DNA of 41,489 bases, from NCBI GenBank assembly GCA_017550025.1, contig JAFYLU010000091.1, positions 1 through 41,489 on the forward strand. Direction: 5' to 3'. The notes beneath the pieces are model-generated. The model searched no databases and was not told the DNA's origin. It saw nothing but the letters and a program-made list of their open reading frames with translations. This DNA comes from Bacteroidales bacterium (GTDB lineage Bacteria; Bacteroidota; Bacteroidia; Bacteroidales; UBA932). Each line of letters begins with the position of its first letter. Position 1 is the stretch's first letter. This document shows positions 3,111 through 32,696 of the stretch, piece after piece. The translations under genes and the position numbers were made by a program.

Positions 3111-3854
3111 CTAAAAGCTGAATTCGAAGCGGTAGAGCTTCGGAGAGTCCTCGTCGCTGCCGACCCATACGCAGCCGCGGGCGCGGTCCACGCAGATGGA
3201 CTCTGCGTTCTCGATCATCGGAACATCATATGATGCAAGCAGCCCGCCTGCCGGTGTGCAGAGGAAGATCTTCCTCATGTTGGAATCCATTACCCAGAGG
3301 TAATCAGACTCGGGCTCATAGCACAGGCCTGCTACCTCAGTAGCAAAATCCGAAAGGGACACCTTGGAAAGGAGAGTTCCGTCAAAGCGGTACTGCCAAA
3401 GATGGGCATGTTCCTGACTGCCGACAAAGAGAATGCCGTCCTTATAGTATTCCACACCCTCGAGACCGCCGTTCCTATAATTATCGTCAATCGCTTCCTG
3501 CACAGGGAATACGTCTGAAACCGTTTGATAATCCGGCGCTGCAAGCCTATAGACATGCTGCTCGCCCTCTATGGCAAGATAAAGGTCACCGGTCGCAGGA
3601 TCGAGTGTCAATCCCTCCATGTCCGCATCATAAACCAGCATCTCGGAAACGGCACCGTCAAATGAAATACTCTTCACAACTCCCTGGTCGCCGCATGAAA
3701 CAAGCATTGTCCCATCAGCACTCATGCACAATCCGGAAAGTTCTTCTACATCAACGTCGTATACAACATGGCCCTTCATTATAGGAAGGGCATTCTTTCC
3801 GTATGATATTACGGAAAGAATGCATGCCAAAATAAAAAGTATATTCCTTTTCAT
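3111..3854 (-). CDS. SdiA-regulated-type beta-propeller protein, exported
   Basis: A 247-residue protein with a signal peptide (about 1-20) followed by a single propeller of the SdiA-regulated (YjiK-like) type. Recurrent blade motifs are visible: EELSGLCMSADGTMLV (about 37-52), MEGLTLDPATGDLYLAIEGE (79-98), GLEGVEYYKDGILFVG (129-144), EVAGLCYEPESDYLWVMDSN (172-191) and AESICVDRARGCVWVGSDED (217-236). The same motif order recurs in the C-terminal half of the GH18 protein at 13969-16053, so the two are paralogous modules at opposite ends of one locus. Ligand and function are unknown; glycan or phosphoester binding is a guess. It is the last gene of the PUL, 3 bp downstream of the GH2 gene. Confidence 0.75.
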   Translation of the reverse strand: MKRNILFILACILSVISYGKNALPIMKGHVVYDVDVEELSGLCMSADGTMLVSCGDQGVVKSISFDGAVSEMLVYDADMEGLTLDPATGDLYLAIEGEQHVYRLAAPDYQTVSDVFPVQEAIDDNYRNGGLEGVEYYKDGILFVGSQEHAHLWQYRFDGTLLSKVSLSDFATEVAGLCYEPESDYLWVMDSNMRKIFLCTPAGGLLASYDVPMIENAESICVDRARGCVWVGSDEDSPKLYRFEFSF

Positions 3855-3857
3855 ATC

Positions 3858-6368
3858 CTACTTATCCAGTTCAATATGAAGACCCTTTACATCTGCAGTG
3901 CAGGTTACTGTCTTTGTCTGGCCTGGGAAGAGAGGGAAGAAGTTGTCGCTCCAGTATGCCGGAACAACAAGATTTCCGTCCTTATCCTTGGCCTTGAGGA
4001 TGTTCATGTATGAGATTACCGCTGAATTGTTCACGAGGGTAACGGTGTATTTTCCATCCTGAGCCTCAACTGTCATCCGGATATCGGCTTCCGGCTGGGC
4101 AAAAGCGAAGCTGAGGTCAGTAAACTCAACTACAGGGGTGTAATACCATGTGTAATCCTCCCAGTCATACACATCCGGCTTTGCACCTATGCAATAGAAG
4201 TTGTCAGCCAGAATATTTCCTTCAGCATCGGCAATTTCCAGCGCGATGAAATGAGCTGTGCCGTCAAAATCATTGAGGTCAAATGCCTTCACCGTATTGC
4301 GGTATGATGTCTCGATCTCGCATGCATCCTCATAAACAAGGGCAGAACCTGCGTCATAAACCTTCACGGACGCAATGAGCTTTCCTGCATCCTTGCCCTC
4401 ATTGACAGCATATACATTGTGATCCTTATAATTATATATGAGCTGAATCGGCTCACAACCCTTTCTGGTTGCGTAATATGCCGCGCATGGCACTCCATAA
4501 TAGTCGTACTGCTGCCAGTAGATCGACGGCCATGCCGAATTGAGCATCCACTGAACGATACCTGTAGAAACCGGAGTATTCACACGGAACGCCTCGAACA
4601 TCGCACGAGTGGCATCGTAGTCCACTGCATGGCCCTTCCTCACGTAATCCTCAAGGTCGGTAGCCTCACCATAAAGGCCGTTGATCACGCGCGTAAGCTC
4701 ATCCATTGAGTTCATGGCTGTGCCAGAAGTAGTACAGTGACGGTCCCAACACTCAGAAAGCGGCCAAAGATGCTCCTCAGGAATCATCTTGCGGAGAGAC
4801 TCCGACTGAGGGAGGTTGGCTCCGATACCTGTCTCAGTGTTGAATCCGAAGGCTCCGCCGTTCTGTGTGTCAATATACCAATAATCCGGACCCACATACT
4901 CATATGGACCCGCCATCTTGCTTCCTGACCATCCGGTAAGCTTACTCTCCAGACTCTTTGCCGAACTGATATAAGGACGATAGTCATATTTCTCATAAGT
5001 CTCAAGATAGCGTTTTTCAAGATCATAGATAGGAACACAGTCACTACCTGTCATCCAAGCGATTACTGAAGCATGATTATGGAGTCTTATCACCTGATCC
5101 TCGAAATATCTTGCCGCCAGGTCGATTTCCTTTGGCTCATAGATACATCCTACGTGGTGGATCTCAGGAATGCCGCAGTAGTTCTCCCACTCCCACTGAC
5201 AACTCCATCCGACAAGGGCAAGCACGCCCTCTCTATCGCAAACATCATAGATGTGATCATCCTTACCCCAGATGTTCTCGAAACGGATAAGGTTCATATT
5301 CATATGCTTCACATACTCAACCTGTCTTTCAAGACCTTCATAAGTATCTCTAAGGAAAATGTCATCAGTCCAGCCAGCGCCCTTAAGAAGAATATCCATT
5401 CCGTTAAGGGTGAACTGTCTGTAGCCATATTCGTTCAGGCGGCTTTCGATCTTTCTGATACCGAAGGTAACGTCCTCTCTGTCAGAAACAACACCTTCTG
5501 TCTCCACATCCACTGCAAGATCATAGAGTTCTGGAGTTCCCAGATCATAGCTCCACCATACTCTCGGATTATCAACATGAAGATTTGCTGCCTGATCTGG
5601 AGTAACAGTTACAATTGTCTCCTCACCACCAGCAAGCTCTACAGGCACGCTGCATGTACCACAATCCTGAAGATCAAGAATGATGTTTCCGGAAACAGGG
5701 TGAGACTGGTTGTTGCGCAGTGTCACGCGCACCTCAAGATCCGCCTCCGCCATAGTCTCCACGTCAAGATCAGGAATCACATATACATCCTGGATGGAAA
5801 CAGGACCAGTAGCACGAAGCTGAACTGTCTGAATAATACCCATGCTCTCATCAAGCGGTCTTGGATTCCAGTCCACGAAACCTATGTTCAGGTCGCGTGG
5901 TTGAGCTCTCTTTACGCGCACCTCTACAGTATTCTTCTTTCCAAGAAGATCCGTTACGTCATATTCCCTTTTGATGAATACGCCGTAAGTGGTGTCCGAG
6001 GATGCGATGCATACATCATTGACAAAGATGTCGGCATAATAGTTCAACCCGTTGAATACCAGGTCATAATGCTGACCTTCAGCCTTGTCCAGAGCAAATG
6101 AAGTCTTATATATCCATGTCTTGTCGAAAATGGTCTTGTCTACATCAAAATAATTGAGACCGTCAAGAAGATCCTCGCCCAGAACACCGGCATCACAAAG
6201 AGCTCCGGCAACCGTCGAAGGGACTTCCACGTCATAAGTCTTGCTGTCACCCTCCTGATTGAGAGTCCATTGATCAAGAATAACCTCATCACCCTGATTC
6301 AAGGCAATAGGAGCGGTACAGGCACACACGAGTGCTGCACAAACATTTACAGATAGTATCTTTTTCAT
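3858..6368 (-). CDS. GH2 exo-beta-D-glucosaminidase-like lipoprotein (CsxA-type)
   Basis: An 836-residue secreted enzyme with signal peptide and probable lipobox (VCAC, Cys17). Order: jelly-roll sugar-binding domain (about 30-190), immunoglobulin-like domain (190-300), TIM barrel (about 305-600), C-terminal beta domains. The barrel reads TLNGMDILLKGAGWTDDIFLR (320-340, by position), SVIAWMTGSD (434-443), GPYEYVGPDYWY (487-498) and GFNTETGIG (508-516). These match the exo-beta-D-glucosaminidase subfamily of GH2, in which aspartate replaces the usual glutamate acid/base: Asp443 is the predicted acid/base and Glu512 the nucleophile. The predicted reaction removes terminal GlcN from chitosan-type chains. 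Alternatives are beta-mannosidase-like relatives. It follows the ROK gene by 5 bp and fits a GlcNAc/GlcN locus. Confidence 0.83.
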   Translation of the reverse strand: MKKILSVNVCAALVCACTAPIALNQGDEVILDQWTLNQEGDSKTYDVEVPSTVAGALCDAGVLGEDLLDGLNYFDVDKTIFDKTWIYKTSFALDKAEGQHYDLVFNGLNYYADIFVNDVCIASSDTTYGVFIKREYDVTDLLGKKNTVEVRVKRAQPRDLNIGFVDWNPRPLDESMGIIQTVQLRATGPVSIQDVYVIPDLDVETMAEADLEVRVTLRNNQSHPVSGNIILDLQDCGTCSVPVELAGGEETIVTVTPDQAANLHVDNPRVWWSYDLGTPELYDLAVDVETEGVVSDREDVTFGIRKIESRLNEYGYRQFTLNGMDILLKGAGWTDDIFLRDTYEGLERQVEYVKHMNMNLIRFENIWGKDDHIYDVCDREGVLALVGWSCQWEWENYCGIPEIHHVGCIYEPKEIDLAARYFEDQVIRLHNHASVIAWMTGSDCVPIYDLEKRYLETYEKYDYRPYISSAKSLESKLTGWSGSKMAGPYEYVGPDYWYIDTQNGGAFGFNTETGIGANLPQSESLRKMIPEEHLWPLSECWDRHCTTSGTAMNSMDELTRVINGLYGEATDLEDYVRKGHAVDYDATRAMFEAFRVNTPVSTGIVQWMLNSAWPSIYWQQYDYYGVPCAAYYATRKGCEPIQLIYNYKDHNVYAVNEGKDAGKLIASVKVYDAGSALVYEDACEIETSYRNTVKAFDLNDFDGTAHFIALEIADAEGNILADNFYCIGAKPDVYDWEDYTWYYTPVVEFTDLSFAFAQPEADIRMTVEAQDGKYTVTLVNNSAVISYMNILKAKDKDGNLVVPAYWSDNFFPLFPGQTKTVTCTADVKGLHIELDK

Positions 6369-6373
6369 TGCAG

Positions 6374-7201
6374 TTAGATAAGAGATGCTCCGATGATAGG
6401 GATTTCACCGCCTGTACGGACATCAACGATAAGTTTTTCAATATTGTTTTTAAACGGAAACCTTTCCTTCAGGTATCCGACCATCTGATCACGGAAAAGA
6501 GGAAGAGCATTGGCGATACCTCCTCCAAGCACGATATGGCTCGGATCGTAAGCAAACATCAGGATCATAAGCGCATATCCCAGATTCCTGCCGAACTCTT
6601 CGAAGAGCTTCATCGACCCCGCATTGCCGGCCAATGCCGCCGCACTGGCTTCATGAGGTTTTACACCATGCCTGTCAAAGAACTGACGGCTGCAATATTC
6701 TTCCAGACAACCATCCTTATAATCGAGATATCCAAGCTCTCCGGCTCCGCAATTGACACCGCAGAACAGACGTCCGTGGTCAACCACACCTATTCCTATG
6801 CCTGTTCCGAGGGTCACAGTAACCAGGACTTCCGGCTTAGCATTTACCGGATATGTGCCATAAGCACCCATTGCATAACAGTTGGCATCATTATTTACGC
6901 TGACCGGAAGACCAAAACGCTCTTCCAGAAAACTTTTAAGATGCACCTCCTTCCATGAAGGTATATTGGCGGCATCATATACGATGCCTTTCTCCACATC
7001 TACCACAGAAGGAACGCCTATTCCTATCTTTGTGACAGAAGGCAGCAGCATTATGGAAATCTGCTCCGCAAGATATTCCAGGGTCTGCTCCATAGTGGCA
7101 GATGGAGCGAACGAAGGAACCGAAGCCATGTTCACGACTACGCCATTATCGACAAGCCCCAAGCAAAGATTCGTTCCTCCCAGGTCTACAGCTAGTACCA
7201 T
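6374..7201 (-). CDS. ROK-family sugar kinase
   Basis: A 275-residue cytoplasmic protein with the ROK fold. The ATP phosphate loop is DLGGTN (6-11), VNNDAN (102-107) carries the catalytic Asp105, TLGTGIGIG (130-138) is the second phosphate motif, and GAGELGY (152-158) is the ROK signature. The usual histidine of ExGH is Tyr158 and the CxCGxxGC zinc cluster is reduced to GC (164-165) plus Cys170, so zinc binding is probably lost. In this context it likely phosphorylates GlcNAc or GlcN released by the GH20 and GH2 enzymes. No DNA-binding helix-turn-helix is present, so it is a kinase rather than a NagC-type repressor. It lies between alkaline phosphatase 1 (22-bp gap) and GH2 (5-bp gap). Confidence 0.85.
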   Translation of the reverse strand: MVLAVDLGGTNLCLGLVDNGVVVNMASVPSFAPSATMEQTLEYLAEQISIMLLPSVTKIGIGVPSVVDVEKGIVYDAANIPSWKEVHLKSFLEERFGLPVSVNNDANCYAMGAYGTYPVNAKPEVLVTVTLGTGIGIGVVDHGRLFCGVNCGAGELGYLDYKDGCLEEYCSRQFFDRHGVKPHEASAAALAGNAGSMKLFEEFGRNLGYALMILMFAYDPSHIVLGGGIANALPLFRDQMVGYLKERFPFKNNIEKLIVDVRTGGEIPIIGASLI

Positions 7202-7223: not shown

Positions 7224-8381
7224 TTATTTGATCAATGCCCTTATCTTATCGGACAGCTCGGTGTTCTCATATACACCGATAAAGTCTTCCGAATGAGGTC
7301 CCCACGCGAACACCGGAAGAGCTATCCCGTTGTGTCCAGTAGTCGAATAATTCACCCGTATCCTCTTATCGTCCAAGCTTCCGCTGAGCAGGGTCATTCC
7401 TCCTGTAGCATGGTCGCCGGTAACGATCACAAGTGTCTCTCCATCCTTTGCCGCCCATTCGAGGACAAGACCTATCGTACGGTCAAAGTCAAAGATTTCC
7501 TCCATCGTCTTGCCGGCTTTATTGTCATGACCTCCGTCATCGATGCATGAGCCTTCGACCATCAGGAAGAATCCCTTTTTGTTGTCAAGAAGCTGGAGAG
7601 CCTTCTCTACTGAAGCCGGAAGGATATCACCGCGGTCAAGAGCCGGCTGGAGTTCATGACTATCCATAAGAGCGACAACCGGACCTTCCTCAACCGCCAT
7701 GAGGTCTTCCTTGGTCTCTACATAAGTATAACCCTTAGCCTTTACCTGTTCTGTAATATCCTTTCCGTCCTCCCTGTTGCGCCAGAACTTGTAGCCACCT
7801 CCTGAAAGAAAGTACACTCCACTGCCAGCCATCTGCTCGACGATATCCTCCTGGCTCTTACGGGTCGCCGAATGGCTGAAGAATACAGCTGGAGTTGCAT
7901 CGTTGACACGGCATGTCACTGCCGCACCAGCTCTCTTACCCTTCTCCATAGCCTCCTCTGCAAGTGACTTGACTGCAACACTGTCCGGAGTCATCGCCAC
8001 CATACCGTTATTCGTCTTGTGGCCCGTAGCAAGGGCAGTACCTGCGGCTGCAGAGTCTGTCACGAGCTTATTTGCAGAATATGTCCTCTGGATACCCACA
8101 TTAGTGAAATTGTCCAGATTAAGCTTTCCTCCGTTGCACACCCATGCCGCGCTGATCTGCTCAAGACCCATTCCGTCGCCGATCATGAAGATGATGTTCT
8201 TGACCTTCCTGCCATGAGGTTCCTCTACGGAAACGGTCTCATAAGGCTCGAGCATTGTGTACTTGTCATCTTCCGCAAAGTTGTTTACAGCATACTTCGA
8301 CCTGTCTCTATCAACAACCTGTGAAAAAGACATCACTGTAAATCCGAAGATGAACGCTATAATAACCAGTGTTCTTTTCAT
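7224..8381 (-). CDS. Alkaline phosphatase (PhoA family), exported
   Basis: A 385-residue phosphomonoesterase with signal peptide (1-20, ending SFSQ). It shows the family metal and nucleophile motifs: MIGDGMG (66-72, Asp69 metal ligand), VTDSAAAGTALATG (107-120, Ser110 nucleophile), GGHDNKAG in the middle, then GDHATGG and GHNGIALPVFAWGP near the C-terminus. It is periplasmic or extracellular. It lies in the GH20-AP-ROK-GH2 unit, 12 bp after GH20. A second member of the same family is encoded at 10536-11708. Presence inside a glycan locus suggests phosphate removal from the glycan or its fragments, but ordinary phosphate scavenging cannot be excluded. Confidence 0.9.
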   Translation of the reverse strand: MKRTLVIIAFIFGFTVMSFSQVVDRDRSKYAVNNFAEDDKYTMLEPYETVSVEEPHGRKVKNIIFMIGDGMGLEQISAAWVCNGGKLNLDNFTNVGIQRTYSANKLVTDSAAAGTALATGHKTNNGMVAMTPDSVAVKSLAEEAMEKGKRAGAAVTCRVNDATPAVFFSHSATRKSQEDIVEQMAGSGVYFLSGGGYKFWRNREDGKDITEQVKAKGYTYVETKEDLMAVEEGPVVALMDSHELQPALDRGDILPASVEKALQLLDNKKGFFLMVEGSCIDDGGHDNKAGKTMEEIFDFDRTIGLVLEWAAKDGETLVIVTGDHATGGMTLLSGSLDDKRIRVNYSTTGHNGIALPVFAWGPHSEDFIGVYENTELSDKIRALIK

Positions 8382-8393
8382 AATTCAGTAAAT

Positions 8394-10463
8394 TTAATTC
8401 TTTCTGTGACGATAAGCTATTCCCTCTGACTCATAGTAAGGCATCTCATGAGATACCACAGTGCTGTAGTATCTGTCAAGATCCTCCATGAAGAGAGGAT
8501 CATCTGCGACTATGGTTCCTTCCCATGAAGGACTTGCATTCCATGCCCTCTCGAAGACACCGCATACCTTAGGGAACACATAAGAGGTCACATGATCAAA
8601 ACTTCTCACTGTCTCCGTCCATAGCTGGGCCTGTACGCCGACAACGTTCTCTCTTGCCGTCAGAGAAGTCTTTCCTTCAGGAAGTGTGCTGATATCACGC
8701 ATCCTTCCCTTGTCATCCCATCTGACTGAACGGTATATGTCATAAGGAAGAAGCGAGAAACTTCTTCTCTCATCCACGAAGCCTCCCCACGAGAGACCAC
8801 GCTCGGTCTTGTCAGGGGTATATGCGAAATCGACATAAGTGTTTGTCATATTGGAAAGCACCACCGGAACTCCGTCATTGGCATATTTATACGGATATTC
8901 CTGCTGTTCTCCACCTGTATGCCAGAAATTCACCGAATACAGGTTCTTCTTCATCCTTTCGTACACATGATCCTCGAGATCCATGACAAGCTCCTGCCAT
9001 CCTGCGATCTTTACGCCTCTAGCCTCAGCTATGTCAAGCACGTTCTCAATGTAATATGACTTGAGAAGCTCGATGTTGTCCCAACCTCTCTCTGCCATGA
9101 TCTTCTGACATGCAGGCGATCCCACCCATGCACCATGCGGCACCTCATCACCGCCGACATGGATTGCAGGAAGAGGGGCACCGGCCTCCTTATGATATGC
9201 GATGAGATCATCAAATACAACCTCTATGAACTTATATGTAGACAGCAGCGCTACATTGATGGCATTGTCCCTATAATACTGCACTGAGCAATATTCGGAC
9301 ACATCCTCCTTCTCGCTGAGCAGACAACTGTCGTCGCCGGTACGCTCCGCATAAGCCTCCATTGCCTTGATAGCTGCTCTTGAATGACCAGGCGTATCAA
9401 ATTCAGGAATGACCTTGATACGACGCTCCCATGCGTATCTTACGATTTCAATATAATCCTCCTTCGAAAGGTGACCGTTTGCTGACGACTCCATATCATC
9501 AGGATCAATTCCACCGTTATATGACGGAAGGAGGTAATCCTCCTCGACATACTCCCCAGCCTGATTCTTGACAGGGAAAGAATGGTAGGCACCGTAAGAG
9601 GTGAGCTCAGGGAACTGAGGGATCTCCACTCTCCATCCTTCATCATCACCGAAATGCAGATGGAACACATTCACCTTATAATGCGCAAGGATGTCAATGA
9701 ACTTGAGGATATTCTCTTTAGAAGTAAAGTTGCGTGATATATCAAGCATGAAGCCTCTATATACGAAGTCAGGCCAGTCCTCAATCACGAGGTCAGGAAG
9801 CTCATTTCCACCGGCATTCCTTATAAGGTTCTCAAGGGTCACCTTGGCATAATATGCCCCATCTTCGTCTGCTGCCTCTATCCTACATGCTCCGTCAAGG
9901 GTGATCTTATACCAACCTGCCTTCTGACCCTCTACCATGACAGCCTCCGGGAGTGCATCAACCGTAGTTGTACCCTCAGCCGGCTGAACGTGCTTGAGAG
10001 AAGGAACCATGTCCCAAACCTCTGTCTTGACGTGATTATAAGGAAAATCAGGAATATTCTCTGACGGGAGGAACTCGTACTTGACCTCAAGAGGAATACG
10101 CCTGGATTCTTTTTCGAGCACAAAACCCTCCGGTGCCCAGCAATGGCGCTGGAGAGGACGGTCTGAATACTTCACTACGAGATTCTTGCCCTCGCGAGCA
10201 AGAGGAATCATCTTATACCAGCATCCGTGATGGAGTTCAATGACGCCTTCTGTACCCTCAACCTCGCGGGAATCGATATGGTTGGAGGTAAGCCACAACG
10301 TCCAATCTGTTCCTTCGGGAGCATTGACAACTGTAATTACGTGCGTCGCACGTCCTGTCTCAGCATCTTTCTCACCTTCGGTCCAAACAATTGAAGGCTT
10401 GTTACAGCAGCTTGCCACAACAAAAACAAGCGCCATTGCAGTAAACAATAAGCTCTTTCTCAT
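8394..10463 (-). CDS. GH20 beta-N-acetylhexosaminidase lipoprotein
   Basis: A 689-residue exo-enzyme that releases terminal beta-GlcNAc (or GalNAc). It has a lipoprotein signal with Cys at about 19-20, a GH20 N-terminal alpha/beta domain (about 125-230), then the catalytic barrel starting DFVYRGFMLDISRNF (232-246), with HLHFGDDEGWRVE (268-280) and VIPEFDTPGHSRA (351-363). The catalytic pair Asp439-Glu440 lies in HVGGDEVPHGAW (435-446). The neighbouring acetamido group of the substrate would act as nucleophile, as is known for this family. It is the first gene behind an internal TATATTTG promoter and probably finishes chito-oligosaccharides made by the GH18 enzymes. Confidence 0.93.
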   Translation of the reverse strand: MRKSLLFTAMALVFVVASCCNKPSIVWTEGEKDAETGRATHVITVVNAPEGTDWTLWLTSNHIDSREVEGTEGVIELHHGCWYKMIPLAREGKNLVVKYSDRPLQRHCWAPEGFVLEKESRRIPLEVKYEFLPSENIPDFPYNHVKTEVWDMVPSLKHVQPAEGTTTVDALPEAVMVEGQKAGWYKITLDGACRIEAADEDGAYYAKVTLENLIRNAGGNELPDLVIEDWPDFVYRGFMLDISRNFTSKENILKFIDILAHYKVNVFHLHFGDDEGWRVEIPQFPELTSYGAYHSFPVKNQAGEYVEEDYLLPSYNGGIDPDDMESSANGHLSKEDYIEIVRYAWERRIKVIPEFDTPGHSRAAIKAMEAYAERTGDDSCLLSEKEDVSEYCSVQYYRDNAINVALLSTYKFIEVVFDDLIAYHKEAGAPLPAIHVGGDEVPHGAWVGSPACQKIMAERGWDNIELLKSYYIENVLDIAEARGVKIAGWQELVMDLEDHVYERMKKNLYSVNFWHTGGEQQEYPYKYANDGVPVVLSNMTNTYVDFAYTPDKTERGLSWGGFVDERRSFSLLPYDIYRSVRWDDKGRMRDISTLPEGKTSLTARENVVGVQAQLWTETVRSFDHVTSYVFPKVCGVFERAWNASPSWEGTIVADDPLFMEDLDRYYSTVVSHEMPYYESEGIAYRHRKN

Positions 10464-10535: not shown

Positions 10536-11708
10536 TCACTTTCTGATAAGCTCGTCTATCTTCCCAGGTATGTCTGTATTCTTCATGACACCGGCAAAGT
10601 TTTCTGCTCCAGCACCGTATGCGAAGATAGGAACAACTGTTCCTGTATGACCGGATGTGCTGAACTTAAGTCTAAGAGGGCCCTCGTTTGCAGGAGTATG
10701 ACCATTGTAATATACACCTGCGCCACCTGTCTCATGGTCTGCTGTCACAACGAGAAGAGTCTCAGGATGATTGTTCACATAGTCGATCATCGCGTTGAGT
10801 GTGCGACCGAACTCCTGCATCTCCACGATCATGCCGTCTGAATCGTTATTATGACCATAACCGTCGATGATTGCGCTCTCGATCATGAGGAAGAAACCGT
10901 CCTTGTTGTTGCGTGAAAGCACGTCGAGTGCCTTTACAGTAGCCTTCTCAAGATATACTGTAGGCTCTGAAAGGTGAGTTGCATTTACATCCTCATTGAT
11001 GGCCGCCATCTGAGCTGCGAGACAAACCTCCTGTCCCTCAGCAGCACTTGCCGTACCGTTGTTCTCCTCTCTTCTGTGGAGGTCATAAAGCGGAAGGATA
11101 CCTACGAACTTGTCTGACTCTGTATTAAGGACAGTCTCCCAGTTAAGATACACATCATATCCCTTCTCTATGAGGGTAGCTGTGAGGTCCAATGAGTCAG
11201 GACGGGCGATGAAGTGGTCAAGACCGCCACCGATAGCCACATCAACCTCACTCTCAGTAAACTGCTTGGCGATGTCGTAAACCATCTTGCGGCTTGTCAC
11301 GCCTGCGTAAAACGCGCCAGGTGTTGCCTCTGTGAGGGTTGTGTTCACCACGATACCTGTCTTCATTCCGTATGTCTGAGCCTTCCTGAGGACGCTTGTA
11401 AGCTGATTTCCGTCAGGATCCGCTCCCACATAACCGTTGTTCGTGCGTGTGCCTGTTGCAAGTGCAGTGCCACCTGCAGCAGAGTCTGTCACATAATTGT
11501 TTGCAGAGCATGTCTCTGAAAGACCGATAACCGGAGCCTCCTCGAATCCTGTCGGCTCATCCTCTGTAAGAAGGAGTGTGGTAACAGCTCCGAATCCCAT
11601 ACCGTCACCGATAAGATAAATTACGTTCTTTACCTTGGGCTCATTGTTGCAGCCGGTAATTGCCAATGCAAGCGAAAGCATTGCCATTGATATAAAACTC
11701 TTCTTCAT
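10536..11708 (-). CDS. Alkaline phosphatase (PhoA family), lipoprotein
   Basis: A 390-residue second PhoA-type phosphatase. The lipobox AITGC places the lipidated Cys at 20, so it is membrane-tethered, unlike the soluble-looking paralogue at 7224-8381. Motifs: LIGDGMGFG (32-40, Asp35 metal ligand), YVTDSAAGGTALATG (72-86, Ser76 nucleophile), GYGHNND for metal coordination, TADHETGG and TSGHTGTVVPIFAYG near the end. It is 34 bp downstream of the GH18-phosphatase fusion and is the last gene before the internal promoter. The two enzymes differ too much along their length to be a recent duplication, which suggests different substrates or locations. Confidence 0.9.
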   Translation of the reverse strand: MKKSFISMAMLSLALAITGCNNEPKVKNVIYLIGDGMGFGAVTTLLLTEDEPTGFEEAPVIGLSETCSANNYVTDSAAGGTALATGTRTNNGYVGADPDGNQLTSVLRKAQTYGMKTGIVVNTTLTEATPGAFYAGVTSRKMVYDIAKQFTESEVDVAIGGGLDHFIARPDSLDLTATLIEKGYDVYLNWETVLNTESDKFVGILPLYDLHRREENNGTASAAEGQEVCLAAQMAAINEDVNATHLSEPTVYLEKATVKALDVLSRNNKDGFFLMIESAIIDGYGHNNDSDGMIVEMQEFGRTLNAMIDYVNNHPETLLVVTADHETGGAGVYYNGHTPANEGPLRLKFSTSGHTGTVVPIFAYGAGAENFAGVMKNTDIPGKIDELIRK

Positions 11709-11742: not shown

Positions 11743-13902
11743 TTATTTCACCATCTGAGTCTTGATCTCATTGATGTCATTCTGAGGAACACCGATTGAA
11801 AGGAGGTATTTCTCAACGCATTCCGCGAATGTTTTACCGCCGAAACTCCACACATATTCACATGCACCTCTGAATGTGCTGACATTGCGGGTGTGGTCAT
11901 AGTATTGGTTCGGCTCATCACCGGACATACTCCAATCTGCAGGGGAGAAATATGTCAGTTCATAGTCCTTTCCAAGGTCTCCCTCAGACACGCCAAGCAG
12001 ACCGAGGGTCAGCATGGCGATAGTACCTGTGCGGTCACGTCCTGCTGAACAATGAATGAATACCGGCTTGTTGTTTCTGAGGCATTTCGCAATGAATGTG
12101 AAGCACTGCTTGACGCCGCTTGCATAGGTCGTCATCATTCCCTTATATCCGTGAGGGAATCCAGGGCAGATGAAGTCTATATCACTGCCAGCCGGAGACT
12201 TTGATGCAGATCCAGCGTCTCTGAGATCGAGATCGGCCTTGATACCAAGAGCCCTCCATTCTTTCTTTCCAGCATCATCAATCCTGACAGCGCCGCCTCG
12301 ATAAAGCTTGCGATACACCACAGTCTTGCCATCCTTGGTCTTCCATCCGCCAAGATCTCTGGCATTGCGGACTCTGTTGCTGAAATAAACCTGATGGATC
12401 GAACCGGTGGTCTTGAATGCTCCATTTGCAACGGCAGTCCCATCGCTATCTGTTACTGTATAATGATAAGTTGAATTAGGGACAAGGTTCAAAAGATCCT
12501 GCTTGGAAACTCCTGCTGACAGGGAATATTCACGGCTCCATTCCTCATCCCAGACCTTAAGCGTAGTCTTGCCCGTATAGCCATTGAGATCCCAGCTGAT
12601 TGTCACCGATGGTGGTATGTCTGCCTCTCCAGGACCTCCGCCAGGGTAATTTTTGATATAGGAAGTGGTCTTGTCCTTATAATCCACATTATAGGTTACC
12701 TCATCCATGAATTTCTGCACATATGCATTGGTAACCTGGTAAGACTCCAGATTACTGTCATTGCCTGTACCCTCATCTGAACCTACGCCGAGAAGGCTGC
12801 CAGCCAAAGTCTTTGATAATGTCCAGTTGTTGTCATCTGCCTCAATGTTCCAGTACATTGCTCCAAGAAGTCCCTTGCTCTTGATGAAGTCGGCCTTAAG
12901 AGCCAGAGACTTGGCATTATCATAGCAGATAACCATATTGCCGCCTGCATCCACGAGATATGGAACCTTGGACTGGTCATCCCAGCGCTCGGTATATGTG
13001 CTTAAATAGCTTGAAGCCAGGTCAACGTAATCAACGCTTTCACCCTGAGCCGGCTTACCATAAAACGGAACACCGAGAACAAGCTTCTCATATGGTACTC
13101 CTGCCTGATAATGCTTCTCTACAGACTCCGCACAGCTGTTCTTTGTCTTGGAAGAAGAGTACAGCGCAGAATGATGATATGGAGGTCTTCCCATATCATA
13201 GGTCATGATATTTACAAAGTCAAGGTATTGCGTCACATTTTTGAAGTCATAATACTTCACGCCTGCATATGTTGCGATAGTGAGAAGTCTGTCTTTGCCG
13301 AGTGTCGCCCTAAGGTCTTTCATCAGCAGGGTAAAGTTGCCGATGTCATTTGGCGATGACGAAATACCTGCAGAAGAACTGCCAGGGTATTCCCAATCGA
13401 TATCGATACCGTCAAGACCGTAGGTCTTTACAGCTGCCAGACAGTTCTCTGCGAATTTTTTTCTGTGATTTGCATCGGCTGCCATCTCACTGAAGTTGCC
13501 TGCACCCCAACCTCCGACTGAAAGCACCACCTTCAGGTTTGGATTCTGACTCTTCAACGCAACTATCTTTCTGAGACGTTCCGGTTTCTTTACATCAAGG
13601 CTCTCGAAGTCATTCTTGATGAGCGCAAATGCATAATTTATGTGCGTAAGCAAAGTCGGGTCCGGCATACGTGTGTCCCAATATGTTGCATAGCCTACGA
13701 TAACAGGCCCTCCTGTAGGTGCTGGAACCGGGTCTACAGGAGTTTCAGGAGTCTGAGGGTCATCAGATGGATTCTGCGTATTGTTATCTTTTCCTTGTTC
13801 CCAATTAGGGGGAGGTATGATAAATCCTGGATTTGGATCAGTGCAACTTGTCAGCGCAATCGTGAGGATCAAAAAGAAAAGGAGAGTCTTTGTAAATTTC
13901 AT
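11743..13902 (-). CDS. GH18 chitinase fused to a tyrosine-phosphatase-like domain, lipoprotein
   Basis: A 719-residue surface lipoprotein (lipobox ALTSC, Cys20) with a Pro/Asp linker (21-64). The GH18 domain (about 65-372) shows LKVVLSVGGWG (123-133) and the catalytic DGIDIDWEYP (164-173, acid Glu171), with the DWEYP form typical of chitinases. A beta-sandwich or Fn3-like stretch follows (about 430-500), then a phosphatase domain (about 505-719) with N-A-R-D-L-G-G-W (513-520), R-K-L-Y-R-G-G (531-537) and the P-loop IHCSAGRDRTG (616-626), giving Cys618 nucleophile and Arg624. This resembles the bacterial Y_phosphatase3 (PF13350) group. ATG 13902 is chosen because it begins the signal peptide; an in-frame start at 13950 adds 16 residues without signal character. 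Endo-cleavage plus dephosphorylation of one glycan is inferred. Confidence 0.88.
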   Translation of the reverse strand: MKFTKTLLFFLILTIALTSCTDPNPGFIIPPPNWEQGKDNNTQNPSDDPQTPETPVDPVPAPTGGPVIVGYATYWDTRMPDPTLLTHINYAFALIKNDFESLDVKKPERLRKIVALKSQNPNLKVVLSVGGWGAGNFSEMAADANHRKKFAENCLAAVKTYGLDGIDIDWEYPGSSSAGISSSPNDIGNFTLLMKDLRATLGKDRLLTIATYAGVKYYDFKNVTQYLDFVNIMTYDMGRPPYHHSALYSSSKTKNSCAESVEKHYQAGVPYEKLVLGVPFYGKPAQGESVDYVDLASSYLSTYTERWDDQSKVPYLVDAGGNMVICYDNAKSLALKADFIKSKGLLGAMYWNIEADDNNWTLSKTLAGSLLGVGSDEGTGNDSNLESYQVTNAYVQKFMDEVTYNVDYKDKTTSYIKNYPGGGPGEADIPPSVTISWDLNGYTGKTTLKVWDEEWSREYSLSAGVSKQDLLNLVPNSTYHYTVTDSDGTAVANGAFKTTGSIHQVYFSNRVRNARDLGGWKTKDGKTVVYRKLYRGGAVRIDDAGKKEWRALGIKADLDLRDAGSASKSPAGSDIDFICPGFPHGYKGMMTTYASGVKQCFTFIAKCLRNNKPVFIHCSAGRDRTGTIAMLTLGLLGVSEGDLGKDYELTYFSPADWSMSGDEPNQYYDHTRNVSTFRGACEYVWSFGGKTFAECVEKYLLSIGVPQNDINEIKTQMVK

Positions 13903-13968: not shown

Positions 13969-16053
13969 CTACAGTCCTGAGAACTTGACTTTATGCAAAA
14001 GGGAGAACTGCTCATCTCCACAGTCTTCACCGACCCAGATGCAGCCGTTCTTCTTGTCCACACAGATTGCTTCAGGGTTCCAATCAGCGAAATCGCCGAT
14101 ATAATACTTGGCAATCAGCCTGGTGGCAGCACCGTCGAACAGATAGATTGTGTAAGGATCATATTGCGGCTTCTCACTGTTGGAGTTGGAGTCGATCACC
14201 CACAGCCAATCGTTCTCTTCGTCATAGTCCAGACCTGCAATCTCGGAGATGTTGGAACATACCGTACGAAGGCTCTTCTTCTCCTGCAACTTGCCGTCCA
14301 GAGTGTAGCGGAACAGAGTGGCTCCTGTCTGGGTTCCCAGCAGAAGTTCGCCCTTATACCAGGCGATGCCCTCCACGCCGGAGTTGCCCATGTCGCTCGC
14401 TCCGTCCACTACCCAGTCAAAGTTGGTCTTGGAGTTGTAACCCGGAGCCGGTACCACATAACCGGAATTGGAAGTTGACTCCAAGCCGACATACATCGTG
14501 CCCGTAGCCGGATCCATGGCAAGTGCCTCCATTTCAGCGCTCTTGTCCCAGTGGAGACTGAAAGTTCCATCGAAATTGATACGATACAATCCACCGTTGT
14601 CGTCACAGCCCCACAGGAAGTCACCATCCTTGCTCAAACACAGACCAGAGAGTTCCGGAATCCACTTGCCATCACTGGTCTGGAGTTTCTTGGAGAATTC
14701 CACCTTGCCCATCTTAGGCGCTTCTTTCTCCGGAACCCACTCGTCCGGGCGTTCGTACTTGCCTGGAGCATCCGGATTTCCGTCCATGGCATGCTTGACC
14801 GCATGGCGGAGTGTACCATTCTTGTCATCAAGACGATACTCCCAGATCATTGCACCAAGCATATTCCTGGACTTGAGGAATTCCACCTTTGCATTTACGG
14901 ATTCTATGTCCTCGTAGCTGGCGTACATCTTGCCAAGGGCGTCGGCAAGGTATGGCACCTTGGCCACATCATCCCATACACGGTAGTTCTTGCCAGCCAC
15001 GCTCTTACCATCACATGTCCCGTTGAAGAAGATGTCTTCAAGGTCACCATAAGTAACCGAACCAGGATAATAGTTGCTGGTGGTTTGCTTGTAACCGTCA
15101 CCGTGACCGTAGAATGGAATACCGAAGTTCATCATCTGGTAAGGGATACCCTGCTGGCCGTGGAAGATATTGTCAATAGCCTCCTGGCAGGTGCGGGAAC
15201 CGGCAATGGAGCTACGGTAGAGAGGAGAATTGTGGTAAGGAGGGTTGCCCTCGTCATAGGTCATCACATTGATGTAGTCAACGTACTGCAGGGCACCTGC
15301 GTTATCAGTATATTTTCCGCTTGAAGAAGCCGCGTAGGAAAGTATCTTGTCCGGCATTGCCTCCCTCATTTCCTTGAGAAGGGTGATGAAGTTGTACCAG
15401 TCAGAAGGGTCGGCGCCATTGACATATTCTCCGTCCTTGGCCGCATAGGTAGGATACTCCCAGTCTATGTCGAAGCCGTCAGTTCCGTACATCTCCGTAA
15501 TAGCCACGCAGTCTTCCACAAAAGCTTTACGTTTTGCTTCATCACGAGCCATCTGGGACCAACCATCTGCATTCTTGCCCCAACCACCCATCTGGAACTT
15601 GACCTTAAGTTCCGGATATTGGGCTTTGCAGGCAACTAACTTCTGCACCAGGGTAATGGTTTTGGCAGGGATTTCATATCCTGTTCCGTTCACCTTGTCC
15701 TTGAAACGAACGTGTCCCACATTGATATGGGTAAAGTTTCTCACTTCTTCCAGGGACGGGAACCAATCATCCTTGGTGTACTCCGTATAGTAGATCTCTA
15801 TGATAGGAGTGATACCGATACGAGCCTTACGCTCCGGGCTATCCCAAGGATTGTCGGCAGGAAGGTCAGGTGTATCCGGATCCGCACCGGGATCTTCAGG
15901 ATTGAAAGGATCCCCCGAAGGGATCTCTCCCGAATTCGGCTTGGTATTGGGATCAGGAACAAGCATTCCCATTCGATCCTGAGTGCAGCCGCATACCGCT
16001 GCCAGGAAAACCAGCAGCGGCAGCAGCAATATAAACCTGAATCTACTTTTCAT
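13969..16053 (-). CDS. GH18 chitinase-like enzyme fused to an SdiA-regulated-type propeller, lipoprotein
   Basis: A 694-residue lipoprotein (VCGC, Cys23) with a long Pro/Asp/Gly linker (25-75). The GH18 domain (about 78-425) carries VKFQMGGWG (151-159) and DGFDIDWEYP (192-201, acid Glu199), plus YINVMTYDEG (260-269) and IWEYRLDD near its end. A C-terminal propeller (about 455-694) repeats the blade motifs of the stand-alone protein at 3111-3854: PELSGLCLSKDG, MEALAMDPATGTMYVG, GVEGIAWYKGELLLG, EIAGLDYDEENDWLWVIDSN and PEAICVDKKNGCIWVGED. The predicted role is endo-hydrolysis of beta-1,4-GlcNAc chains at the cell surface, with the propeller as a binding or sensing module. It lies 12 bp after the FISUMP lipoprotein gene. 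Confidence 0.88.
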   Translation of the reverse strand: MKSRFRFILLLPLLVFLAAVCGCTQDRMGMLVPDPNTKPNSGEIPSGDPFNPEDPGADPDTPDLPADNPWDSPERKARIGITPIIEIYYTEYTKDDWFPSLEEVRNFTHINVGHVRFKDKVNGTGYEIPAKTITLVQKLVACKAQYPELKVKFQMGGWGKNADGWSQMARDEAKRKAFVEDCVAITEMYGTDGFDIDWEYPTYAAKDGEYVNGADPSDWYNFITLLKEMREAMPDKILSYAASSSGKYTDNAGALQYVDYINVMTYDEGNPPYHNSPLYRSSIAGSRTCQEAIDNIFHGQQGIPYQMMNFGIPFYGHGDGYKQTTSNYYPGSVTYGDLEDIFFNGTCDGKSVAGKNYRVWDDVAKVPYLADALGKMYASYEDIESVNAKVEFLKSRNMLGAMIWEYRLDDKNGTLRHAVKHAMDGNPDAPGKYERPDEWVPEKEAPKMGKVEFSKKLQTSDGKWIPELSGLCLSKDGDFLWGCDDNGGLYRINFDGTFSLHWDKSAEMEALAMDPATGTMYVGLESTSNSGYVVPAPGYNSKTNFDWVVDGASDMGNSGVEGIAWYKGELLLGTQTGATLFRYTLDGKLQEKKSLRTVCSNISEIAGLDYDEENDWLWVIDSNSNSEKPQYDPYTIYLFDGAATRLIAKYYIGDFADWNPEAICVDKKNGCIWVGEDCGDEQFSLLHKVKFSGL

Positions 16054-16065
16054 GGTAAAGGATTA

Positions 16066-17940
16066 TTATTCAGCAGATTCCGCTACGCAACGTACGCTAC
16101 CGCCACGAGAGCGAACCTGGCCGGAACGCTGGAACTTGGTACCATCGTCAGTGTAGCCATACATACCATAACCGTTCACGGTACCACTATCCCAACGTCC
16201 AGACCATACAAGAGTACGTACTCCTGCCTTCTTCTGCCCCTCTGTACCTTCATCCATATAACCGGCAAGAGGGAAGATCATAGTACCAAGGGTATAGCAG
16301 CAGTTATCAGTATCAACTGCAAAATAATCTCGATCAACCAAGTTGCCATCCCAAAATCCACATGATTTATTACGTTCAGGAAGCATGTAGCCAACCGGAC
16401 ATGGGTCATAAATACTCTTTTCAGTTTCACCCCAGAGTTTACCAACAGCGTCAGTTATCTCCGGCAGCCAGTCTTTGCTGTTTTCGTTCTTGGTCACATA
16501 AACGGTAGGATTCTTGATTGCTTCCTCAACTGTCATAGGGCCTGCCTGACTGGTCATTTCTGTACCGGCTACGGTAATGGCACCAGCACCGTTTACCACA
16601 CCAAGGCCTGGGAACGGATCCTTGCGGCCCCACTCATAAAGAAGACCGAAGGACTCTACTGTTGCGACTTGATCAAGAGCTGCAGGTGTATCTACAAGAG
16701 CTCCAAGGTTTCTGCTCATTGCTGGCTTGACAGAATAATTCTGCTCAACAGCGTCAGTGACCGGAGTAGCAGGAATCCAGATGTGCCAGCTCCAGAGAAC
16801 CTCATCATTGGCATCAAGGGCAGCGATGAGAGCATTACCAGGCTTCAGTGTTGAAGGAGTAGAGAAAGTGATGAAGTCATCTGAATAGTCAACAGAAGCG
16901 ATAACGCTGTTGGCAGTCACTACCTCCTGATTATTCCATGTTTCCCAAAGGAGAGCAGCCTTTGCAACAGCTCCGACACTTTCCTCAGTATTACCCTTCA
17001 CGAGCGGGAACTTGTATTCGCCAGCCTCACTCACGATGTAGCAGTTCGCGGTTCCATTCTTACCAAGATTCTTAGGACCTTCCTCAATTGCAGAATTGAT
17101 TACAATGTTCACGAAAGAAGTAAGACCTACCTTAGAGTCAGCATATGCAAGGAGAACTGCGCTCTCTGTAAGTTTGAGAGGAGTAATGACGATGTTTGCG
17201 TCGTCTACCTCAACCTTGAAAGCCTTTGGATTGTATCCCGATACATTAACCTCTGTTCCGGCAGTCTTTGCAGACACGGTGTAAGGAATAGTGATCGGAT
17301 CCATAGTCTCATACTCGAATTCTGTAGTGGCGATGTTCAGCCTGAAGGCTTCAGCGAACGGAATGTTCACTGTTGATCCGTCAGACAAAGTCAAGACAAC
17401 AGCCTCGTCGGTAACCGCAAGGTCAGTGAAGATGCCATCCTGGAGAGTAGCACCGCCGGTATCATCGCTTGATACAACGGGTCCGAGGTTAGTCTTCTTG
17501 CCATTGATCTCGACAAACAGGTTTCCTTCTTCATCGATGGAGAAGACAGGAGTCTGGTACACAGGCACCTCTTCACCATCCACCTTGATGGCGATACCAT
17601 CCACCGCCCATACCAGCTGGCCGGCACCGTCACGAATTACGGAGAACACAGGACCTTCAGACGGATCAGTCGGAACAATATTGAAGTGTACTACATTGCC
17701 GTCAGTGTAAGTAACTGTGATTCCAGTGGTGCGTCCTGTTTCCGGATCCTTATACTCTTCTACCTTGCGAACGAACTTGCCATCACCTACAGCGGACTGA
17801 AGGGCCGAAATGTCGTTCTCCAGCTTGCTGATTCGAACGTCCAATCCATTGATCAGATCTCTAAGGCCAGTGTCGTCATATTCCATGGCGCAGCCCACTG
17901 TCAGGAGCGCCAGCACAACGAGAGTAAAAAACTTTTTCAT
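16066..17940 (-). CDS. DUF4988-like plus FISUMP-like surface lipoprotein
   Basis: A 624-residue lipoprotein (LLTVGC, Cys17). Residues 20-55 form a short coiled coil (RDLINGLDVRISKLENDISA region) followed by beta repeats up to about 200, as in DUF4988 proteins of PULs. A middle beta domain covers about 200-285. The C-terminal half (about 292-624) has NLGALVDT, LLYEWGRKDPF, IYDPCPVGYMLP and GGSVRCVAE, the landmarks of the Fibrobacter succinogenes major paralogous (FISUMP) domain. That half is homologous to the next gene upstream (17970-19814). It is probably a surface glycan-binding protein; the ligand is unknown but the context suggests GlcNAc polymers. Confidence 0.75.
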   Translation of the reverse strand: MKKFFTLVVLALLTVGCAMEYDDTGLRDLINGLDVRISKLENDISALQSAVGDGKFVRKVEEYKDPETGRTTGITVTYTDGNVVHFNIVPTDPSEGPVFSVIRDGAGQLVWAVDGIAIKVDGEEVPVYQTPVFSIDEEGNLFVEINGKKTNLGPVVSSDDTGGATLQDGIFTDLAVTDEAVVLTLSDGSTVNIPFAEAFRLNIATTEFEYETMDPITIPYTVSAKTAGTEVNVSGYNPKAFKVEVDDANIVITPLKLTESAVLLAYADSKVGLTSFVNIVINSAIEEGPKNLGKNGTANCYIVSEAGEYKFPLVKGNTEESVGAVAKAALLWETWNNQEVVTANSVIASVDYSDDFITFSTPSTLKPGNALIAALDANDEVLWSWHIWIPATPVTDAVEQNYSVKPAMSRNLGALVDTPAALDQVATVESFGLLYEWGRKDPFPGLGVVNGAGAITVAGTEMTSQAGPMTVEEAIKNPTVYVTKNENSKDWLPEITDAVGKLWGETEKSIYDPCPVGYMLPERNKSCGFWDGNLVDRDYFAVDTDNCCYTLGTMIFPLAGYMDEGTEGQKKAGVRTLVWSGRWDSGTVNGYGMYGYTDDGTKFQRSGQVRSRGGSVRCVAESAE

Positions 17941-17969
17941 ATGGTTCTATATTAGTTATTAGTTACAAA

Positions 17970-19814
17970 TTATTCTACGGTACAGCGCACTGAACCAAGA
18001 CGGGCTTTCGGTGCGGAGCCGAATTTAAAGGTACCCTTGTCGTAGCGAAGGTCAGCGCAAGGTCCCTTGGCATCATCGGATGACTGAGAAGTCCAGTACA
18101 GGGTACGGGTACCCACCTTCGCGAGGGCGTCCACACCGTAGTCGTCACGGTAACCGGCAATCGGGAAGACAGATGCCTCTGGAGAGCCAAGCTTGAGCCA
18201 TCCGGCTGCGCTGTTGATGCCCCATCCCGCCTGTGCAGTCAGGTCACTTGACCAGAACGGATTGGCAGTGATCTTCTTCGGCACTCTGTAACCCGGAGGA
18301 CACGGATCGTAGATGGTCTTTTCGGCATCTGCCCACAACTCGTTGTTCGGAGTCAGGCACCAATCTCCGTTGTTGATGTGACCGAGCAGACGCGGATCAG
18401 CAATAGATTCCTCAAGGGAAATCTGACCTTCTGCCAAAGTTTCAGGAACCCCGTAATAGGTCGCAGGGCTTTCGCCATTGAATTCAGCAGCCGCTGTGAA
18501 CGGATCCTTGCGGCCCCATTGGTACATCATGCCATATGAAGTCGGATCCACCTGTCCGTCGGTCGCAGCAGTTGCTACGAGGGCACCCAGGTTACGGTCC
18601 ATAATATCTACACCCATGATGCCACCGAAGTTTGCGGTCACGATACTTGTCGCTGGAATCCAGATGTGCCAGCTCCAGAGGATATTGCCGTTCGCATCCT
18701 TAGCGACAACCATCGCGTTGCCGGCTTTCAGAGCCTCCGGCGTACGGATGATTATGTAATCCTCAGCGAATGAAGCAGAGGCAAGCACGCTGTTCTGTGT
18801 AACCTCTGATGCGTCGTTCCAAGTCTCCCAGAGAATCTCGGCAGACTCCACATCAGGGATATAGTTTGTAGGCTCATTTCCATATACCGCCTTGAACTTG
18901 TAGGTACCCGGCTCCTCAATGATATAGCAGTTCGCGTTACCGACCATATCCAAATCCTTGACATCGCTGGAGAACGGATTGTCATAATGCTGGATGTCTT
19001 CAGTGATGTCACCGATATTCACAATGCCGCCGCGTGCAATCTCCACAGGATCAGTGTATTTGAATATCTTGGTATAGTCATCCCCTTCTTTGAACTTCAC
19101 AACGAAGCCTGACTTGAAAGCAGTGCCTTCCGGCAGGAAAACCATGAGTTCAGAATCGTTGATGGTTCCGTCCATCTGGAGAATTGGATTTCCTACATAC
19201 TGCTTGTAGTTCTGCTCATTGTCGGTAATCTTCACCTGCAGGAACTCATATCCGATCGCGTCCTTCTTAGGAGTTGATATGGTATATCCGTCATAGTTTC
19301 CGTCCACTGACATTGTCAAGAGGCCGCAGATATTCTGGAACTGGAAGGTATCTTCGTTGTTGCACGCCGCCATGATCTGCGCATTGGAGGTCGTGAACTG
19401 ACTATAGAAGAAGCAGTGCTTGAGGTTGTTCACAAATGACGCCGGATAAGAGGCATACAGGGTGCTTGAGCAGTCTTCTCGCTTATATGGATAAAGTCCG
19501 CTCACCTCAACAGTCGCAGCCTTGCCGTCATCAGAAATGTCGTCGGCTGCAAGAGTGACAGTCACCTGATTCTTGGCATATTCGCCATGAACCACGATCT
19601 GATCGCCGGCCACCCAAGCTGTCTTCAGAGCATCTGGCACCTCCTCGCCCTCCCCGAGAGTGAATTCAGGGAGGACAAAAGTGAGCGTACGGGTCTCCGG
19701 TTCCACTTCAGGCACCCCTGGAACCGGACCTTCCGGATCAAAAGGGTTCTCGTTGCAGGCGAAAAGCGGGAGAATGACTGCGCAAAGAATCGCTATGTTG
19801 TAAATCTTTTTCAT
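17970..19814 (-). CDS. Fimbrillin-like plus FISUMP-like surface lipoprotein
   Basis: A 614-residue lipoprotein (PLFAC, Cys20 counted from MKKIYN). The N-terminal 270 residues look fimbrillin-like (TWxxGDQIxV-type strand at about 66-75, YPY and LYASYPA segments, MVFLPEG at 223-229). Residues about 290-614 match the neighbour at 16066-17940, with shared blocks NANCYI, WETWN, ILWSWHIWIPAT, DRNLGALV, YQWGRKDPF, YDPCPPGYRVP and GSVRC. I chose ATG 19814 because it begins the signal peptide; ATG 19826 adds only four residues and remains possible. Probable surface glycan-binding or adhesin role within the PUL. Confidence 0.72.
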   Translation of the reverse strand: MKKIYNIAILCAVILPLFACNENPFDPEGPVPGVPEVEPETRTLTFVLPEFTLGEGEEVPDALKTAWVAGDQIVVHGEYAKNQVTVTLAADDISDDGKAATVEVSGLYPYKREDCSSTLYASYPASFVNNLKHCFFYSQFTTSNAQIMAACNNEDTFQFQNICGLLTMSVDGNYDGYTISTPKKDAIGYEFLQVKITDNEQNYKQYVGNPILQMDGTINDSELMVFLPEGTAFKSGFVVKFKEGDDYTKIFKYTDPVEIARGGIVNIGDITEDIQHYDNPFSSDVKDLDMVGNANCYIIEEPGTYKFKAVYGNEPTNYIPDVESAEILWETWNDASEVTQNSVLASASFAEDYIIIRTPEALKAGNAMVVAKDANGNILWSWHIWIPATSIVTANFGGIMGVDIMDRNLGALVATAATDGQVDPTSYGMMYQWGRKDPFTAAAEFNGESPATYYGVPETLAEGQISLEESIADPRLLGHINNGDWCLTPNNELWADAEKTIYDPCPPGYRVPKKITANPFWSSDLTAQAGWGINSAAGWLKLGSPEASVFPIAGYRDDYGVDALAKVGTRTLYWTSQSSDDAKGPCADLRYDKGTFKFGSAPKARLGSVRCTVE

Positions 19815-19841
19815 AATCTCATTCATTTTAAGGTCCTTTGT

Positions 19842-21380: not shown

Positions 21381-21392
21381 AATAAATTACAA

Positions 21393-23060: not shown

Positions 23061-23093
23061 ATATCGATAGTTTTTATCCAAGGTTGACGACTG

Positions 23094-27536: not shown

Positions 27537-27554
27537 ATTCGTGCACATTTTAGA

Positions 27555-32573: not shown

Positions 32574-32619
32574 GTTGTTAAATTTTATGTGAGTTAGTTG
32601 TATTTGTATCATCGAAATC

Positions 32620-32643
32620 TGTCGGTACCAGCATGGTACGACA
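32620..32643. repeat. Inverted repeat in the susC1 5' leader
   Basis: TGTCGGTACC (32620-32629) and GGTACGACA (32635-32643) form a 9-bp stem with one bulged base and a 5-nt loop. It lies between the predicted transcription start (near 32656) and the susC1 ATG. It may be a leader hairpin affecting expression or a protein-binding palindrome. Confidence 0.5.
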
Positions 32644-32662
32644 AAAAACGGTGTAACCTCGA

Positions 32663-32670
32663 CAAAGGTA
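32663..32670 (-). promoter_or_regulatory. PUL promoter -7 element (TACCTTTG) before susC1
   Basis: The minus strand reads TACCTTTG, matching TAnnTTTG, 90 bp upstream of the susC1 ATG. No TTTG occurs 19-21 bp further upstream, as expected for an activator-dependent promoter. The predicted leader is about 83 nt. Confidence 0.6.
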
Positions 32671-32696
32671 GCACTCAAAAAAATTGAAGATGGATA

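Follow-up and report, generated by a model that had tools for sequence, protein, structure and literature searches.

A putative surface lipoprotein joining GH18 chitinase and Y_phosphatase3 domains in a chitin/chitosan-type utilization locus of Bacteroidales

Chitin utilization loci of Bacteroidota hold genes for SusC/SusD, GH18 and GH20 proteins. The locus described here lies in a window of 41,489 nucleotides (the whole stretch of DNA analysed, positions 1 to 41,489 of contig JAFYLU010000091.1 in assembly GCA_017550025.1 of a Bacteroidales bacterium) and adds to this set an exo-glucosaminidase-like GH2 protein, two alkaline phosphatases, and a phosphatase domain fused to a GH18 domain. Chitin PULs of Bacteroidota have been described, in the sections available, by two reports (PMC5127042, PMC10449523). 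The GH18 part of the fusion shares its family and the motif DGIDIDWEYP with its best PDB match, 5gzu, titled Chitinase (E 2.8e-86), to which the window protein adds a C-terminal phosphatase and a lipobox. An EndoS-type endo-glycosidase was considered in place of a chitinase and rejected on sequence grounds, PF23916 scoring far below PF00704 and the best PDB match bearing the title it does.

For the phosphatase half, the closest described systems are Cys-based enzymes of the Pfam family PF13350. The module matches PtpB of M. tuberculosis (MptpB, 1ywf) and 8dhi by profile, best in the P-loop region, and a full-text literature search found no paper accompanying 8dhi/8dhj. With MptpB, Pho16B and PF13350 it has in common NxRDLGG-like and HCxxGxDRTG motifs as well as the profile match, and it differs from the MptpB/Pho16B class in being fused to GH18, in its lipid anchor, and in carrying Arg for Lys. 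The accessible sections of one study describe an atypical lipid phosphatase class in which the P-loop Asp is the acid/base and the Lys is important in substrate binding, and within it Pho16B, a secreted, promiscuous phosphatase with phytase activity, for which ten substrates were tested, InsP6 and glucose-6-phosphate among them (PMC6409689). The published loop HCXXGKDR[TA]G is not matched exactly by the present module, as Lys is replaced by Arg in 31 of 31 modules with the rest kept (H, C, G, R, D, R and T of the P-loop are invariant in these 31 aligned modules); by its profile match, the module is placed within PF13350 and not strictly inside the published motif. The same sections name PhyAsr of Selenomonas ruminantium as a PTP-like phytase (PMC6409689). 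Cys-based phosphatase chemistry is common to the window module and phytases of this type. We take the PTP-like phytases to belong to another Pfam family. Full-text literature searches, with subscription papers and preprints outside their scope, gave no description of a GH18–PF13350 fusion among the matches listed. Each domain is known; the architecture appears to be new, and some of its members have phosphatase-rich surroundings.

The fusion gene and its operon

The fusion is encoded by a single frame of 719 aa that begins with ATG and contains no internal stop, an in-frame GTG 16 codons upstream being an alternative start. The original prediction, made from the letters of the DNA, had described an uninterrupted frame with a lipobox, an intact GH18 active site and an intact phosphatase P-loop, and all of these were recovered at the residues named, to which the minus strand can now be added. 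The lipoprotein signal ends in the lipobox LTSC. The catalytic DxxDxDxE of GH18 is present as DGIDIDWEYP (D164–E171, with Glu171 the predicted acid) within a PF00704 match (E 1.2e-71; 242.4 bits against a curated cut-off of 29.6), and the HCx5R loop of the phosphatase as IHCSAGRDRTG, with Cys618 and Arg624, within a PF13350 match (E 4.2e-30; 105.9 bits against 22.2). The C-terminal region matches only PTP-type chains in a sequence search of the PDB. As both catalytic motifs are complete and conserved across relatives, the further claim that the protein is not decaying also stands. The proposed beta linker fared less evenly: residues 372-505 of the window protein have no Pfam match, and because the equivalent stretch in the homologues L111, L112 and L139 gives fn3 matches below the Pfam cut-off, the spacer is called fn3-like only provisionally. 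In view of its profile match to PtpB and 8dhi and of the chemistry described for that class, the module is probably a Cys-based phosphomonoesterase held at the cell surface beside a chitinase. The features of the locus, in the order of transcription, are as follows.

32746..33906, minus strand: regulator with a periplasmic-binding-like domain and an AraC-type HTH, upstream of SusC
29397..32678, minus strand: SusC-type TonB-dependent transporter (profile search)
27555..29384, minus strand: SusD-type lipoprotein (domain match and signal)
24789..27548, minus strand: possible second, divergent SusC of 919 aa, before a SusD gene, no Pfam match
23094..24776, minus strand: second SusD-type lipoprotein (Pfam and signal)
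16066..23081, minus strand: four lipoproteins, two with BACON, one with no Pfam match, one with DUF4988 (Pfam and signal)
13969..16053, minus strand: second GH18 lipoprotein with a C-terminal beta-propeller-like region (weak SGL match)
11743..13902, minus strand: fusion lipoprotein; signal and lipobox at about residues 1-20, Pro-rich linker to about 65, GH18 at 68-356, fn3-like spacer at about 372-505, Y_phosphatase3 at 510-718
10536..11708, minus strand: alkaline phosphatase (PF00245) with VTDSAAGGTA and a lipoprotein-type signal, 34 bp downstream of the fusion gene
8394..10463, minus strand: GH20 family protein (beta-N-acetylhexosaminidase family), lipoprotein-type signal
7224..8381, minus strand: second alkaline phosphatase (PF00245) with VTDSAAAGTA and a signal at the N-terminus but no lipobox
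6374..7201, minus strand: ROK family protein (Pfam)
3858..6368, minus strand: GH2, CsxA-like putative exo-glucosaminidase (profile match to 2vzs)
3111..3854, minus strand: phytase-like/SGL beta-propeller protein, N-terminal signal

Sixteen genes on the same strand, from SusC (32678) down to 3111, follow one another with gaps of 3-72 bp, in the order SusC, SusD, a probable second SusC/SusD pair, four lipoproteins, the second GH18 and the fusion, and then alkaline phosphatase, GH20, alkaline phosphatase, ROK, GH2 and the beta-propeller protein. A home-made SusC profile gives the possible second SusC 928 bits, though that protein may itself have been among the sequences used to build the profile. 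The four lipoproteins are possible glycan binders, the second GH18 lipoprotein contains no phosphatase domain, and the ROK protein is likely a GlcNAc/GlcN kinase. Both alkaline phosphatases keep the DSA motif (in VTDSAAGGTA and VTDSAAAGTA, respectively), which we take to be their nucleophile motif, and two of the three PF00245 frames in the genome lie in this operon. Since residues 20-829 of the 836 in the GH2 protein match the exo-beta-D-glucosaminidase 2vzs (E 2.1e-113), the target glycan likely contains GlcN besides GlcNAc, and a CsxA-type enzyme for deacetylated (GlcN) units would be at hand. A SusC/SusD pair, GH18 and GH20 lie within one gene run, as in chitin/chitosan PULs, and by its predicted enzymes the locus is a chitin/chitosan-type (GlcNAc/GlcN-polymer) PUL with two alkaline phosphatases. 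Because such a PUL is here combined with two extra phosphatases, it is plausible that chitin-type breakdown and the release of phosphate are linked. A promoter and terminator scan gave figures close to those of shuffled sequence.

Other observations concern proteins in and beside this gene run. An SGL/phytase-like beta-propeller is found in the protein at 3111-3854 and, weakly, in the C-terminal part of that at 13969-16053, and a homologue of the former (L126) matches both the SGL and the phytase-like families. A 170-aa protein with an N-terminal signal, encoded at 1959-2471, has a TonB plug domain as its sole Pfam match.

Fused relatives and their history

Forty-nine distinct fused sequences, the window copy included, were collected from many MAGs. 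A pattern scan with the fusion protein as query, run on GTDB species genomes, supplied the first relatives. Its best 80 matches represent 79 loci; about 30 of these hold a full or contig-cut fusion, and the remaining loci, except L038 and L042, match in the GH18 part alone. The rest of the 49 were found in extra loci from the window's family and genus. Fusion-bearing records are labelled Bacteroidales, Bacteroidia and, once, Prevotellaceae, and the source, where named in the record titles of the best-80 scan, is ruminant gut. Within the genus, the module occurs in 145 of 400 genomes (E <= 1e-10); a count by eye puts about 45 of the listed matches with fusion-like scores in frames of at least 700 aa. 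PF13350 occurs in 84 of 299 family genomes, where 40 stretches chosen mainly around long frames yielded three more GH18 fusions (L083, L084, L095). The order sample has the module in 10 of 393 genomes (E <= 1e-10), in frames of 277-414 aa apart from the window's own, the only one of fusion length. PF13350 (E <= 1e-8) was found in 18 of 395 genomes of the phylum sample with no GH18 fusion except the window's, the frames measuring 183-384 aa besides the window's 741 aa and one of 655 aa (G1243, L180) that has no GH18 match.

The GH18 motif is kept in 47 of the 49 fusions, the other two (L027, L036) beginning at a contig end beyond the motif, and the P-loop in 48, the exception (L137) ending at a contig end. 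An alignment was made of 27 out of 32 fused or possibly fused sequences (the window, L003-L031, L034 and L036), identical, cut and two-frame sequences being left out; D164, D167, D169, E171, Y235, D236 and W351 of GH18 and H617, C618, R622, D623 and R624 of the phosphatase are invariant among them. The window was compared with L004, L005 and L034, and in the pairs that allowed a value dN/dS lay at 0.06-0.09 in GH18, at 0.04-0.13 in the phosphatase and at 0.12-0.19 in the spacer. These values are rough because dS is high; purifying selection is indicated for both halves. The fusion is kept in proteins as low as 52 percent identical to the window's and occurs in differing gene neighbourhoods.

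Trees of the two halves, both built from quick searches, bear on the origin of the fusion. Among 58 phosphatase modules the fusions require two label changes; the only other module to fall among them is that of L038, which has a gene of its own (386 aa) and a long branch. In the tree of 108 GH18 domains, a single group (SH-aLRT 98 percent) contains 46 fused rows together with 7 unfused ones, and the tree has 7 label changes in all, at least 4 of them forced by well-supported branches. Two of the unfused rows are only apparently so: L029 is cut, and L031 has its GH18 and phosphatase halves in two overlapping frames, possibly through a frameshift in the record. The phosphatase is missing from at least five close GH18 relatives (L032, L033, L035, L037, L042), which look like real losses, a pattern that, as far as these trees can tell, fits a single origin of the fusion followed by losses. 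L038 carries the phosphatase module and a GH18 as separate genes in one cluster, beside an alkaline phosphatase; since this GH18 falls outside the fusion group and instead clusters with additional unfused GH18s, those of L004, L005 and L041, a simple fission of the fusion was rejected for this locus. A MAG from horse faeces encodes, at L042:9236-12118, a distantly module-like protein (HCQGGADRTG) directly before a GH18 gene, apparently a separate pairing of the two activities.

Phosphatase modules and phosphatase genes around the fusions

Occurring also without GH18 and with other partner domains, the phosphatase is a reusable surface module. A Pfam scan of 21 module proteins without GH18 found, above cut-off, fimbrillin-like PF13149 in L086 and L105, BACON in L108, Big_2 in L082, L097, L101, L128 and L139, and a PF00756 esterase in L090, with no partner above cut-off in the rest of the 21. 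The same module being joined to Ig-like, BACON, fimbrillin-like and esterase domains, it need not be chitin-specific, and since many module loci are without GH18, its substrate may be unrelated to chitin. Near relatives (L122-L125) are lipoproteins of 410-428 aa with no GH18 within 1.4-7.4 kb either side. Three loci (L082, L115, L118) combine SusC/SusD, the surface phosphatase module and an alkaline phosphatase with no GH18 match seen, and by their gene content look like organophosphate uptake loci; in L116 the module is next to an alkaline phosphatase, again with no GH18 seen and without SusC/SusD in the piece examined. A second enzyme–phosphatase fusion of the same genus is found at L090:5596-7791, where Pfam places Y_phosphatase3 and then the PF00756 esterase on one chain, and the same layout is probable for L091:4659-6854, its near twin in the tree.

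Other phosphatase genes accompany part of the fusions. An alkaline or histidine acid phosphatase gene lies at most 3.5 kb away in 14 of the 49, PF00245-like in six (window, L004, L005, L006, L034, L168) and a histidine acid phosphatase in eight (L011, L012, L018, L019, L095, L132, L146, L148). Pfam names PF00328 on L012 and L018 and a home-made profile identified the others; RHGxR and HD motifs are kept in all eight, and the gap to the fusion gene is 7-25 bp in seven. The histidine phosphatase gene of L019, L095 and L146 is on the opposite strand and therefore not in one transcript with the fusion. Given the mean density of such genes in 61 genomes of the genus (202 matches to PF00328 and 135 to PF00245, fragments counted), about 1.1 neighbours would be expected for 49 fusions; at 16 matches per genome, close to the maximum observed, the figure would be about 3.1. 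Related lineages occur among the 14 cases, which therefore do not count as 14 independent events, and a very small binomial value obtained for the neighbour counts leaves common ancestry out of account and is not to be taken as a probability. As a control, GH18 genes without the module have such a neighbour in 3 of 49 cases, namely L038 and L041, whose loci resemble the window's PUL, and L040, a Proteiniphilum locus of a different lineage with GH18, two alkaline phosphatases and a ROK gene. Gene calls in the relatives are simple open frames and flanks are often short. Neither type of phosphatase gene was found within 3.5 kb of 35 of the 49 fusions, and 36 have no SusC/SusD profile match in DNA of up to 10 kb, many stretches being shorter; with alkaline phosphatases at 6 and SusC/SusD matches at 13 of 49, a neighbourhood of this kind was rejected as a rule for all fusions. 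Judged by eye from MAG titles (L168 is untitled), the copies with an alkaline phosphatase are from the rectum, colon and cecum, and most of the titled copies that lack one are from the rumen, reticulum, omasum or abomasum, L036, from cecum, being a counterexample.

Proposed function and alternatives

The reading that we favour, at about even odds, is that a tethered chitinase-phosphatase cuts chitinous material and strips the phosphate that comes with it; relatives with both halves intact suggest feeding on chitin-like material that carries phosphate. At the cell surface, the GH18 domain would bind and cleave chitin or its partly deacetylated form, probably from fungal walls or comparable debris in the gut of ruminants. 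The fn3-like spacer would hold beside it the Cys-based phosphatase, with Cys618 as presumed nucleophile, Arg624 binding phosphate and Asp623 as acid/base, which may remove phosphate monoesters carried either by the glycan itself or by compounds bound within it (inositol phosphates or sugar phosphates, for example). Neutral oligomers could then pass through SusC/SusD and be finished by GH20 and the exo-glucosaminidase, with the ROK kinase feeding the products into metabolism, and the alkaline phosphatases would finish the released esters. An association of chitosan with polyphosphate in fungal walls would be one candidate source of the phosphate. A more specific version, which we regard as doubtful, holds that the locus and the fusion dismantle a phosphorylated or phosphate-crosslinked chitin/chitosan-type glycan by chain cutting and dephosphorylation in one place; such a glycan is not yet described in the ruminant gut, and full-text literature searches for phosphorylated chitin in this setting found no paper.

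It is also possible, if rather unlikely, that the protein scavenges phosphate from organic esters of any kind, be they phytate, sugar phosphates or lipids, the GH18 domain mainly parking the enzyme on chitin and the two reactions being uncoupled. The varied partners of the module (Big_2, BACON, fimbrillin-like and PF00756 esterase domains), its place beside alkaline phosphatases with or without SusC/SusD where no GH18 was seen, and the promiscuity of its class member Pho16B, as given in the accessible part of PMC6409689, all agree with this, but the GH18 catalytic residues are kept as strictly as those of the phosphatase, more than an anchor needs, and the window copy lies within a GlcNAc/GlcN degradation PUL. 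Improbable in our view is a phosphatase aimed at eukaryote phosphoproteins or phosphoinositides (of host, ciliate or fungus), with GH18 as a binding arm and attachment or interference in place of nutrition. The P-loop class does include lipid- and protein-acting bacterial phosphatases, and some modules are fused to fimbrillin-like domains; lipoprotein anchoring, PUL context and broad phosphatase neighbours nevertheless point to nutrition, and the Pfam matches of the window include no delivery system.

Two further alternatives deny the single chain a purpose. Neutral domain shuffling would have joined two lipoprotein genes, both working, without benefit from the joining, as the many partners of the module and the stand-alone occurrence of related modules and GH18s might allow; the persistence of the fusion down to 52 percent identity and across varied neighbourhoods argues instead for selection, and this explanation has little probability. 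The window does come from a MAG of 121 contigs, yet the finding of 49 distinct fused sequences across many MAGs makes chance joining or misassembly very unlikely and rules out an artefact of assembly or frame for practical purposes.

A natural chitinase-phosphatase with both activities on one chain would tie the recovery of carbon to that of phosphorus at the surface of the bacterium. The fusion would then point to a phosphate-bearing glucosamine polymer, or to phosphate-loaded chitinous matter, as a nutrient in ruminants, and the reusable surface phosphatase module can serve to find further phosphate-linked loci.
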